Assembly (NCBI RefSeq): GCF_003730115.1
Contig: NZ_RJVP01000002.1
Span: 434,001-498,000 of the forward strand
Reading direction: 5' to 3'
DNA: 64,000 nt
From: Pseudomethylobacillus aquaticus
GTDB taxonomy: Bacteria; Pseudomonadota; Gammaproteobacteria; Burkholderiales; Methylophilaceae
The notes below the pieces were generated by a model. It did no database searches. It was not told the origin of the DNA and saw nothing but the letters and a program-made list of their open reading frames with translations. The position numbers and the translations under genes are program-made. Shown piece by piece: positions 49,749 through 52,803 of this stretch; position 1 is the first letter of the stretch; every line of letters starts with the position of its first letter.

Positions 49749-49794
49749 TGTTAAACTCAACTATTAAATGCCAGCCATTGAAAGCATGCCAGCC

Positions 49795-50604
49795 ATGAAT
49801 CAACCTGTAGATCTGATGATCGAAGACGTACAAAACACGCCCGACAAACGCCACCTGGCCATCGACAAAGTGGGCATCAAATCCATCCGTCATCCGGTCA
49901 AGGTCAAGGACAAATCCGGCGGCGAGCAGCACACCGTGGCCATGTTCAATATGTACGTGCACCTGCCGCACAACTTCAAGGGCACGCACATGTCGCGTTT
50001 TGTTGAGATCCTCAACATGAACGAACGCGCCATCTCCATCGACTCCTTCGAAACCATACTGCGCGAGATGGTCTCGCGCCTGGAAGCCGAAGCCGGTCAT
50101 GTGGAAATGACCTTCCCATACTTCATCGACAAAGCCGCGCCAGTCTCCGGCGTGCGCAGCCTGCTCGACTACGAAGTCACCTTCATAGGCGAGATCAAAA
50201 AAGGCAAGTTCGAGATCACCGTCAAGGTCATGGTGCCGGTCACCAGCCTGTGCCCGTGTTCCAAGAAGATCTCCAACTACGGCGCGCACAACCAGCGCTC
50301 ACACGTCACCATCACCGCGCTGATCAACGATTTCATCTGGGTGGAAGAACTGATTCGCATGGTGGAGACGCAGGCTTCCAGCGAACTGTACGGCTTGCTC
50401 AAGCGTCCGGACGAAAAGTACGTGACCGAATATGCTTACGATAACCCGAAGTTCGTCGAGGACATGGTGCGTGACGTGGCGGCACAGTTGAACGCCGAGC
50501 CGCGTATTGACGCCTATGTGGTGGAGTCGGAGAATTTCGAATCCATCCACAATCACTCTGCTTATGCTCTGATCGAACGCGACAAGCGTACTGAAAAGCA
50601 CTGA
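49795..50604 (+). CDS. folE2: GTP cyclohydrolase FolE2 (type IB)
   Basis: 269 residues from ATG 49795, preferred to ATG 49768 because the product then begins [19 protein letters not shown]. Motifs [12 protein letters not shown], the metal/catalytic Cys in [10 protein letters not shown] (about residue 152), and HNQRSHVTI identify the FolE2 class, which makes dihydroneopterin triphosphate for folate and can use metals other than zinc. The C-terminal 20 residues ([19 protein letters not shown]) are encoded in the first of three tandem 135-bp repeats; copy 3 could encode an alternative, perhaps ancestral, end. Confidence 0.96.
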
Positions 50605-50865
50605 TTCGAAATTGCCCACCTGCGCGGGTCGCCCCTACGGGCTGCCCGCTCCGCCGCTCTGGCGTGCCACTCCTCATCCATCCACAATCACTCTGCTTAT
50701 GCTCTGATCGAACGCGACAAGCGTACTGAAAAGCACTGATTCGAAATTGCCCACCTGCGCGGGTCGCCTCTACGGGCTGCCCGCTCCGCCGCTCAGGCGT
50801 GCCACTCCTCATCCGTCCACAACCACGCTGCCTATGCGCCGATCGAGCATCAGGAGCGCGCCTAA
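50541..50865 (+). repeat. 135-bp tandem repeat covering the folE2 3' end (two full copies plus a diverged partial third)
   Basis: Copies begin at 50541, 50676 and 50811, exactly 135 bases (45 codons) apart. Copies 1 and 2 differ at only a few bases. Copy 3 (55 bases, to the TAA at 50863-50865) is diverged but still reads in the folE2 frame as a FolE2-like tail (SSVHNHAAYAPIEHQERA). Each full copy contains the 64-base end of folE2 and about 70 bases of GC-rich spacer. The remaining gap to 51063 (about 200 bases) has a TATAAT at 50928-50933 and a hairpin at 51012-51044 but no gene. Confidence 0.92.
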
Positions 50866-51063: not shown

Positions 51064-52803
51064 ATGAGTGTCCCAACCTTGCCCCAGATTCAGGATGTCT
51101 ATGTCAGCCGGAATCTGCATGCCAGTGCTGTGGTTTTTGATCCTAACGCCCCCATCATCATCGCTTTTTCTGCTGGAACACTTTGTCGGCTTCCATTCGC
51201 TCGTGTATTTGCCGAGAAATATGGACTGAACTGCGTTTCGCTGGCCTGTCGCGCTACGGACTGGTACCAGTATGAAGATCTCGAACAGGCCGAGCAGGCT
51301 ATTCGCGCCTTCACTGCGCCGTTTCCGAAGCGGATAAGTTATGGAGCTAGCATGGGTGGTTATGCTTCCTTGCTGACGTCAGCGAATGTAGGCGCGGACG
51401 TGGTGCTGGCGTTCTCTCCCCAGTTTTCCATCCAGCCGGATGAAGACGTGCAGGAAATGCGCTGGGACATCGAACGGCTGCGCATTGAGAATGAGCTAGG
51501 CTATGTGCACGACGATCTGGAGGCTCGCATCTCCCGCACCGCTGACATCATCATCGTTTACGATCCGAGGGATGAAGATAAACGACATGTGGAAGCACTG
51601 AAGAAACTCCGGCCGATCCAGACCATGGTATTGCCGCATACGGGACATGCCACTTTGCTGTCACTTGCCAAGCTTGGTATGTCCTCGCGCATGCTTATGG
51701 CTCTGCTGAAAAATCAACTGGACTTGGGCTTGGCTCAAAAACAGATGTATGCGGCTCGAAAGCAGCATATACAGGTGGAGCTGATTCTAGCTAACAAAGT
51801 CAGAGCGAAGCGTACTGTGGCTAAGTGGTTGCTGGAAAAATTTCTGGACAGCCAGATCGTGGTGTACGACTCATCCTATCGGGCATTGCTTCATGAGGCT
51901 GTCCGGCTGCAGGACGCTGATCTCGTGGCGCGCGCTTGGCTTAAGCTGGTAGACGCACATCTCAAGCTCAGTTCTGAGCTCGACTTCATGCTGGACACGA
52001 TCTCTTTCCGGCGTATCTATTTTTCGGACAATATTTTTCTCTCTGATATCCGTCAGTCAGCGCCTGTGCTTGTGCAGTCGCAGTTGTTTGCCACCGTCAT
52101 CGACAAGTTAAGATCGGCCGCTGCTGACGTCAACGAGTCACGCGAAAAATTCTTTATCCAGCTGGCCATTGCTGAGTGCTTTCATGCGGCACAGGACCGT
52201 GATGCGGCGACTCAGCAGGTGTTGCAAGCGGTTCGGCCATTCACTTCCTGGGATGAAGAGAATCTCTATGCCATTGAGGCCTTGAACCGTTACGAAGCTA
52301 GTGCATCTGCACAAATGTATGCAGAACGATTGCGGCATTATGTTGAGGATGACATTACGGTATACATGGCGCGTGCCCGTACGCATGAACTCAATAATAA
52401 CTGGCGACAAGTGGCGGCAGTCTGGGCTGAGGCTAGGGATAAGGGTCTGCAACCTCTGAAGGTGGCCCACTTGTTAGGGCGATCCTTGTTGCGGATCGAG
52501 CAGTATCAGCAGGCCTTGACTGCTTTGCAGCCTTTGCTTGAATTGGAGCGGGTGCCGCTGGAAATCAAGAAAATGGAGGCCAAGATTGCGCAGAATCTGG
52601 AGATGCATCAGCGCAGTATTGCCTTGCATGGTGAACTGGTTGCGCACGAACCCAAAAACCCAAATTACTATAAATCCCTCAGTATGGCATTCCATGCCCT
52701 GGGTGATCTTCCCAAGGCAATTGAATACGCACGCAAGGCTGCCGAAGTCTCCCCGTTGGACTCTTTCCAGATCTATCTGAATCGTCTGGAGAAGTTTCGC
52801 TAG
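51064..52803 (+). CDS. Orphan protein: alpha/beta-hydrolase-like N-terminus and helical-repeat C-terminus
   Basis: 579 residues. The first ~220 form an alpha/beta-hydrolase-like pattern: PIIIAFSAGTL strand, nucleophile elbow YGASMGGYAS (about residue 98), DIIIVYDPRDEDKRH acid region and HTGHATLLS with a candidate His. The remainder is helical, with TPR-like repeats near the end (QQALTALQPLLELERVPLE, SLSMAFHALGDLPKAIEYARKAAEVSPLD). No signal peptide or membrane segment. GC content is visibly lower than in neighbours, and it stands alone between folE2 and a convergent MFS gene, both hints of acquisition by transfer. I do not recognise the family; esterase, thioesterase or a polysaccharide-related role are all possible. 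Confidence 0.75.
   Translation: MSVPTLPQIQDVYVSRNLHASAVVFDPNAPIIIAFSAGTLCRLPFARVFAEKYGLNCVSLACRATDWYQYEDLEQAEQAIRAFTAPFPKRISYGASMGGYASLLTSANVGADVVLAFSPQFSIQPDEDVQEMRWDIERLRIENELGYVHDDLEARISRTADIIIVYDPRDEDKRHVEALKKLRPIQTMVLPHTGHATLLSLAKLGMSSRMLMALLKNQLDLGLAQKQMYAARKQHIQVELILANKVRAKRTVAKWLLEKFLDSQIVVYDSSYRALLHEAVRLQDADLVARAWLKLVDAHLKLSSELDFMLDTISFRRIYFSDNIFLSDIRQSAPVLVQSQLFATVIDKLRSAAADVNESREKFFIQLAIAECFHAAQDRDAATQQVLQAVRPFTSWDEENLYAIEALNRYEASASAQMYAERLRHYVEDDITVYMARARTHELNNNWRQVAAVWAEARDKGLQPLKVAHLLGRSLLRIEQYQQALTALQPLLELERVPLEIKKMEAKIAQNLEMHQRSIALHGELVAHEPKNPNYYKSLSMAFHALGDLPKAIEYARKAAEVSPLDSFQIYLNRLEKFR

Follow-up and report, generated by a model that had tools for sequence, protein, structure and literature searches.

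A tandemly repeated folE2 end in Pseudomethylobacillus aquaticus as a possible case of a betaproteobacterial hairpin inserted near gene ends

Introduction

The folE2 gene of Pseudomethylobacillus aquaticus (Methylophilaceae) raises a simple question: why does its 3' end occur three times in tandem? The gene lies in the stretch of DNA analyzed here, referred to as the window, which comprises 64,000 nucleotides (nt) of contig NZ_RJVP01000002.1 (assembly GCF_003730115.1, positions 434,001 to 498,000 of the forward strand). By comparing the locus with other folE2 loci and with the genomes of related bacteria, we found a conserved hairpin of ~60 bases, designated E, which resides behind a variety of unrelated genes in a characteristic layout that includes a second copy of the gene end. 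We place about even confidence in the reading that the window represents one case of this betaproteobacterial pattern, in which a short hairpin would be inserted by copying at a GAMAA site near the end of a gene.

Results

The open reading frame (ORF) of folE2 (GTP cyclohydrolase type I, FolE2) occupies positions 49768 to 50604 of the forward strand, on which all features of the repeat described here are read, and it ends within the first of the repeated gene ends. A first-pass annotation had reported a 135-bp repeat at this site, and the repeat is real: Tandem Repeats Finder likewise places it at 50541-50846, with a period of 135, 2.3 copies, and a score of 556. Copy 1 (50541-50675) consists of the gene end, its stop codon, an inverted arm, and a hairpin, copy 2 (50676-50810) is identical to copy 1 at 133/135 positions and appears to be a recent tandem duplication, while copy 3 (50811-50865) is a decayed, partial folE2 end (39/55 identical to copy 1) that is followed by downstream sequence in common with G002, the nearest relative and the only other genome of the genus in our comparison. 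The three tails stop at 50602-50604, 50737-50739, and 50863-50865; copies 1 and 2 encode alike tails of 20 residues, whereas copy 3 encodes SVHNHAAYAPIEHQERA. It had been proposed that folE2 now stops early in copy 1. The gene does end there, but its product is not shortened, as the 278 aa protein matches the GCHY-1 model (PF02649) from position 2 to 260 of 260. Since the 200 bases 3' of the last copy are 91% identical between the window and G002, the last copy can be regarded as the native end, as the first-pass annotation had suspected, while the first copy goes together with the spacer. The anticipated variation in copy number is also evident, with three folE2 ends in the window's genome and two in G002, which has the unit once; the 71-base spacers of the two agree at 66 positions. 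Given that the same unit is present in this second assembly, an assembly artefact is an unlikely source of the repeat. Copies as similar as 1 and 2 are what replication slippage or unequal crossing-over would leave, and one could therefore regard the locus as a plain tandem duplication of the folE2 end plus a downstream hairpin, with any likeness to other genes being coincidental. That the window's own hairpin is not dispersed is in keeping with this, but copy 3 has no hairpin after it.

Similar arrays were found at other folE2 loci. We assembled 80 named folE2 loci, the closest being those of Methylovorus and Methylophilus. The first 30 were read directly, and five of these contain a second folE2 end 124-137 bp further on: L004 and L008 from Methylophilus, L019 from Sulfurimicrobium, L023 from a member of the Nitrosomonadales, and L029 from Sulfuricella. 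A strict pattern run over all 80 loci yielded no case beyond these five. When the folE2 end was searched in 150 genomes of the window's family, 31 had more than one match. We read 40 stretches (30 of the 31 multi-match genomes and 10 with a single match) in addition to the window and found tandem folE2 ends 120-142 bp apart in 12 genomes, while a decayed second end in G138 brings the family total to at least 13/150. It should be noted that L004 and L008 are counted again in this set as G141 and G147. The remaining multi-match genomes had no second folE2 end in the stretch taken, which was mostly 9 kb downstream and less near contig ends. Outside the family, tandem ends occur at four loci (L019, L023, L029, and the folE2 of G169); G169 has six gene ends in tandem, and both ends of L023 are identical to just beyond the stop. 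Phage-borne folE2 ends were considered as well and rejected, as the two IMG/VR matches sit in full folE2-like reading frames and are not units.

In most of the tandem folE2 loci, the spacer between the gene ends is an imperfect palindrome that forms the conserved hairpin E. A consensus of 14 spacers contains 14 base pairs, five of which have changes on both sides. Individual folds of four spacers were compared with shuffled sequences, resulting in z scores of -6.8, -3.9, -2.9, and 0.0, the last being no better than the shuffles. A hairpin model built from the folE2 spacers (R1) has matches in at least 64 of the 150 family genomes, often away from folE2, and the same unit anatomy was present behind other genes at the R1-found places that were read. 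We also used a sequence profile of 36 cores that contains no base pairs (R2). It has matches in 122/349 genomes sampled from the order (GTDB Burkholderiales), representing 59/147 genera, and in 9/349 genomes sampled from the phylum. Four of these nine are from the same order, one being the window's own, and among the other five only G674, which belongs to the same class, has a strong match. The E-bearing target genes comprise hemE, argF, ftsW, metK, accB, tkt, proB, dapD, smpB, and gap, together with a ferritin-like gene, a class I/II aminotransferase gene, and an acetyl-CoA synthetase-type gene. These were named via NCBIfam, Pfam, or the record annotation using one representative each, with orthologues assigned by the likeness of their ends; three more targets (L309, L303, and L228) have no Pfam match. 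True E units are also present in the window's genome itself, at hemE, argF, and ftsW, and among the matches listed, this genome differs from G002 in its numbers of hemE hairpins (3 versus 1), ftsW hairpins (1 versus 2), and folE2 spacers (2 versus 1). The proposal of a spacer element at folE2 is correct in part: the gene end is indeed linked to a spacer with structure, in an arrangement seen repeatedly, but the GC-rich spacer of the window is not itself dispersed among the 100 genomes searched for it.

Rfam searches of 11 loci with units gave four sub-threshold matches and none above the gathering score. Among plasmid and phage records, one E query found no phage match and a single 35-base plasmid match, while the gap unit as the query found matches to the gene only. 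The exact E pattern was present in one IMG/VR contig (L359, 9351-9388), where E is found within an apparent coding sequence, with target and arm separated by a few bases. Several E sequences are also parts of larger repeats. An intergenic repeat of ~350-400 bp with nested palindromes contains E at L211-L214, L217, L219, and L220 (from G104, G098, G080, and G074), and in G074 it sits at contig ends. Repeats of ~250-300 bp that resemble miniature inverted-repeat transposable elements (MITEs) carry E plus shortened tandem E copies at L342, L343, and L345-L349 in G191, where their inverted ends are AGCAGGCCGTTGAAAAAC, and at L353-L358 in G296; as they carry E, these repeats multiply it. E was likewise found inside repeats at L222-L224 (G148) and L229 (G006), two of which have ends that we take to be IS5-like (GAGACCTTTGCAAAA in L223 and GGGCGCTTCTATAAAT in L224).

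The units share a consistent order: a GAAAA or GACAA target within the gene, the gene end, the stop codon, an inverted copy (S') of the ~10 bases that follow the target (S), the hairpin, and then the gene end again. Our arm analysis covered 113 of 123 R2 matches, of which 96 have an A-run at the right edge by which they could be anchored and 57 have a duplicated gene end, though the 57 units are not independent, as several derive from one array. An initial control for the duplication was inflated by orthologous loci, with 35/76 above its 95% point. The arm matches S of its own unit at a mean of 7.1 of 10 bases, whereas the means are 5.9 against the next copy and 2.6 against unrelated loci, and a match of ≥7/10 to the unit's own S was obtained for 39/57 units versus 1/1140 unrelated pairs, a control that leaves out loci whose S shares >5/10 bases. 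S differs between the copies in 27 units, and with the comparison anchored on the A-run, the arm fits its own S better in 21, the next copy better in 4, and both equally in 2. An inverted arm is not something that plain duplication can produce. Slippage would leave a repeat but no inverted target copy after the stop, and it would not place a single hairpin family next to the duplicated ends of a dozen gene families; the arm statistics refute it for the E family. For the window we consider it very improbable.

The position of the hairpin is constrained as well. The target of the 40 first units reads GAAAA in 35 cases, GACAA in 4, and GAGAA in 1. Our script required the A-run, but not the leading G, although it passed over units with CC, CT, or TT in front of the target as non-first. 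An ORF stop follows the target by 16-109 nt in 39/40 of these units, one of which is probably spurious (L298, near a tRNA). Typical target-to-stop distances are 31 nt for ftsW, 46 for dapD and accB, 58 for hemE, and 64-70 for folE2, and nearly all fall between 31 and 70 nt. Such crowding within ~70 nt of the stop would follow if only gene-restoring insertions survive. Target and hairpin are separated by 64-90 nt in 33/40 first units, and these distances cluster tightly at 76-84. Across 17 gene groups, this distance does not correlate significantly with the position of the stop (Spearman 0.31, p 0.23), while a nearer stop goes along with a longer stretch behind it (Spearman -0.60, p 0.011). Full periods are 107 to 148 bp in 51/57 units. 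Only 13/57 are multiples of three, and so the preservation of frame noted at folE2 by the first-pass annotation is not a rule in the wider family. By our reading, L314 duplicates the apparent 5' end of a gene on the opposite strand, as would be expected if survival only requires that a reading frame be restored. At L190 (1501-1586), E lies beside a weakly duplicated stretch that failed the duplication test and is a possible second 5'-end case; on the opposite strand this stretch resembles the start of a NuoD-type gene. Two further observations concern orientation. The targets are in frame in 38/38 sense cases, but this was rejected as a signal, since that frame already accounts for 72-79% of the corresponding motifs in 793 ORFs. 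The 16 scored E matches of G191, which were looked at for lagging-strand priming, are divided into 8 per strand, but many are inside MITE-like repeats and the even split is of little weight.

The argF-like genes L192 and L344, which come from two families (L344 being named by likeness), have hairpins at the same GAAAACAGGCT target but with different arms, a contrast pointing to repeated insertion at orthologous sites. Units may also have moved between species. Transformation could have brought in a foreign folE2 end plus the hairpin that follows it, and recombination could have placed both in the gene on the upstream side of the native end. Mosaic units in Methylophilus-type genomes speak for this, such as L129 and L132, which are almost alike in copy 1 and the arm and differ in the hairpin and copy 2. 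Import of this kind would cover the spread between species, but not the origin of the arms, the target motif, or the fixed distance, and among all of the explanations considered here we rate it as the least probable for the window.

The window has the layout of the E family. The target-type motif GAGAA is located inside folE2 at 50530-50534, followed by S at 50535-50546, which recurs inverted behind the stop. The 11-bp arm S' of unit 1 (50603-50613) overlaps the stop codon, is the reverse complement of 50533-50543, and matches its own S at 9/10 bases compared to 5/10 for the later copies; the arm of unit 2 is at 50738-50748. Target and hairpin are 77 nt apart, and two further gene ends follow. 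For the spacer by itself, 30/5000 shuffles, which were only roughly dinucleotide-preserving, produced an inverted match of ≥9 to the gene part. The GC-rich spacer hairpin extends from 50624 to 50664, with predicted stems at 50624-50649 and 50652-50664, and its right end (GCCAC) resembles the GCCAC(AA) of E, while the middle does not align; it could represent either a replaced hairpin or one of a second kind. We infer that the window's hairpin, a member of the E family solely through its layout, arose in the same way as the E units. Behind the array lies a gene (51064-52803) whose only Pfam matches are TPR-type, below threshold, and located toward the C-terminus; its N-terminal part resembles a hydrolase.

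We compared the occurrence of candidate enzymes in E-rich and E-poor genomes, using sets of 22 genomes each that were hand-picked and differ in lineage (G163, with 10 matches, and G394, with 8, were left out). Integron integrase scored above the cut-off in 17/22 E-rich versus 4/22 E-poor genomes (p = 0.0002) and was also associated with E among all 150 genomes of the window's family (p = 0.0007). However, the family association is gone for genomes of ≥2.0 Mb (32/16/23/10, p = 0.81), with p = 1.0, 0.65, 0.81, and 0.58 at 1.5, 1.8, 2.0, and 2.2 Mb, respectively. No R2 match was found around intI in 16 loci, 161 kb in all, where two attC candidates passed our filter, both with ordinary ends (GCCTAAC..GTTGGGC and GCCCAAC..GTTGGGC), and the window's own genome has only an integrase fragment below the cut-off. 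These results bear upon the strongest rival explanation, in which S, the gene end, S', and the hairpin form a circular cassette and a site-specific recombinase reads the folded S'-hairpin-S just as an integron integrase reads attC; insertion at S within a gene would supply a new gene end and push the native end downstream. The pairing of S and S' from the same unit is what a circle would need, the near-constant size is suitable, and the stem, symmetric internal loop, and stem with a bulge and variable tip resemble the anatomy of attC. Copy 1 of L141, judged by eye, uses other synonymous codons than copy 2 and seems to come from another lineage. The excess of integron integrase in the hand-picked E-rich genomes also speaks for this model. 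Against the cassette are the composition of the hand-picked sets, the loss of the integrase signal in larger genomes, the absence of E near intI, and the ordinary ends of the attC candidates there, whereas E is joined at AMAA. A cassette also leaves unexplained how one hairpin carries the ends of many genes with matching arms. Overall, we consider this model rather doubtful.

A reverse transcriptase could similarly be envisioned as the source. In such an RNA-primed scheme, resembling that of a short interspersed nuclear element (SINE), the 3' AMAA of a hairpin RNA would pair with a nicked target and be copied by reverse transcriptase, after which the end of the complementary DNA would snap back and copy S, and a stagger of ~80 nt would create the target duplication. 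Target-primed reverse transcription is employed by long interspersed nuclear elements, and long target duplications with an inverted copy at one end would fit such a process with snap-back. However, RVT_1 was found in 10/22 E-rich versus 8/22 E-poor genomes, leaving 12 E-rich genomes that lack it, and there was neither evidence for transcription of E nor, as mentioned above, a sufficient Rfam score. We regard this route as improbable, if slightly less so than slippage. The Y1 transposase was present in 16/22 E-rich and 13/22 E-poor genomes, was not found in 35/64 E-positive genomes of the family, and showed no association at ≥2.0 Mb (p 0.65). Thus, none of the three candidates (Y1/RAYT, integron integrase, and reverse transcriptase) is convincingly associated with E.

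Discussion

How might a hairpin come to lie between two copies of a gene end, next to an inverted copy of the target? We favor a copying process because the arm is copied from the target, the motif at the target is also that of the hairpin's 3' end (AMAA), and the length of the duplication is nearly fixed. First, a strand that bears the hairpin would pair at GAMAA through its 3' end (AAAA or ACAA), which would be extended along the target, creating hairpin-S-gene end. The upstream strand would then be copied through the same gene end past the stop, over a metered distance of ~80 bases, so that the gene end constitutes the target duplication. Finally, the 3' end of the upstream strand would switch onto the S beside the hairpin and copy it, yielding the inverted arm S' joined to the hairpin. 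An enzyme or a patch of fixed size could determine the duplication length. The first gene end would remain in frame and functional, whereas the second would be freed to decay, and the resulting tandem units could later expand, shrink, and be exchanged by ordinary recombination, with unit 1 of the window probably having been duplicated recently. The first-pass annotation had envisioned a spacer capturing a gene end; nothing shows this, and to judge by the arms it was rather the insertion that copied its target. More tentatively, E may represent a betaproteobacterial class of non-autonomous hairpin elements that are self-primed at GAMAA and leave an inverted arm and target duplications of ~80 bp. 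It is possible, though still doubtful, that such a class employs a copy-in mechanism unlike known transposases, perhaps RNA-primed like a SINE, and keeps giving genes new ends.

A number of observations weigh against this reading. For the window, the letters of its hairpin give no R2 match in the window or in L114 at an E-value of 0.1. Among 100 genomes searched with the spacer, matches to its whole length were confined to folE2 of G000 and G002, and hence to the window's genus, and elsewhere only short partial matches occurred (E-values of 0.0046 or worse). In addition, the window's spacer folds little better than shuffled sequence (z of -1.8 and -0.6, compared to -4.2 for the G002 spacer), and the right-hand S is eroded. 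For the family, 56/113 matches lack a unit that passes the duplication test (17 of these could not be anchored), and a good number of E matches sit in MITE-like or other intergenic repeats. Likewise, 7/40 first units fall outside of 64-90 nt, with tkt at 44, the ferritin-like gene at 50, and five at 103-214, although the latter distances are partly counting artefacts, as some skip a unit of an array. Units moving as closed cassettes could likewise give rise to arms that match their own units. Lastly, no strain was observed both before and after an insertion, and the E-rich versus E-poor comparisons of Y1 transposase and reverse transcriptase yielded no enzyme.

E shares features with several known systems. 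Integron attC sites have R'' RYYYAAC and R' GTTRRRY at their outer ends, with the junction at G|TT. Like integron cassettes, E units are small and tandem, each ends in an imperfect palindrome with outer arms that match within the unit, and the end of one unit is completed by the start of the next. Unlike them, E has its junction at AMAA rather than G|TTRRRY, its arms are host gene sequence, it carries a gene end rather than a gene, and it was not found near intI in 16 loci. Repetitive extragenic palindromes (REPs), which are associated with REP-associated tyrosine transposases (RAYTs, Y1), are likewise short, dispersed, intergenic hairpins with several copies per genome, but E differs in its long target duplications, its templated arms, and its lack of association with the Y1 transposase. 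Integrative elements at gene 3' ends, such as the islands in guaA, similarly supply a working end and leave the old one beyond, whereas E has no integrase or cargo, places one hairpin family at many unrelated genes, and has inverted arms. Rickettsia palindromic elements and MITEs are also palindromic, non-autonomous, and inserted in or beside genes, but in E the target duplication carries the gene end and the arm is copied from the target. The nearest published repeat that we found is BRE, a short betaproteobacterial repeat that is often tandem, variable in number, and in some cases overlaps ORF ends (Hot et al. 2011, PMC3110155). Its units are described as 75-91 bp in length with no or few bases between them, mainly in Bordetella and the Comamonadaceae; the passages concerned report neither gene-end duplication nor arms, and 'duplicat' is absent from the main text (PMC3110155). 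BRE and E are compared here by description only and not by their letters. No description of hairpins that duplicate gene ends was found in the open literature searched. E fits among the short palindromic repeats, while its insertion process may be new in kind.

If the proposed process is correct, a hairpin of ~60 bases enters essential genes harmlessly because its insertion carries the gene end along. This would account for the repeated ends found at hemE, metK, folE2, smpB, and other genes, and different species could then exchange the ends of their housekeeping genes. A copy-in enzyme would also become directly testable by virtue of the fixed distance and the templated arm. Such arrays would call for caution both in the annotation of gene ends and in strain typing that relies upon tandem repeats.
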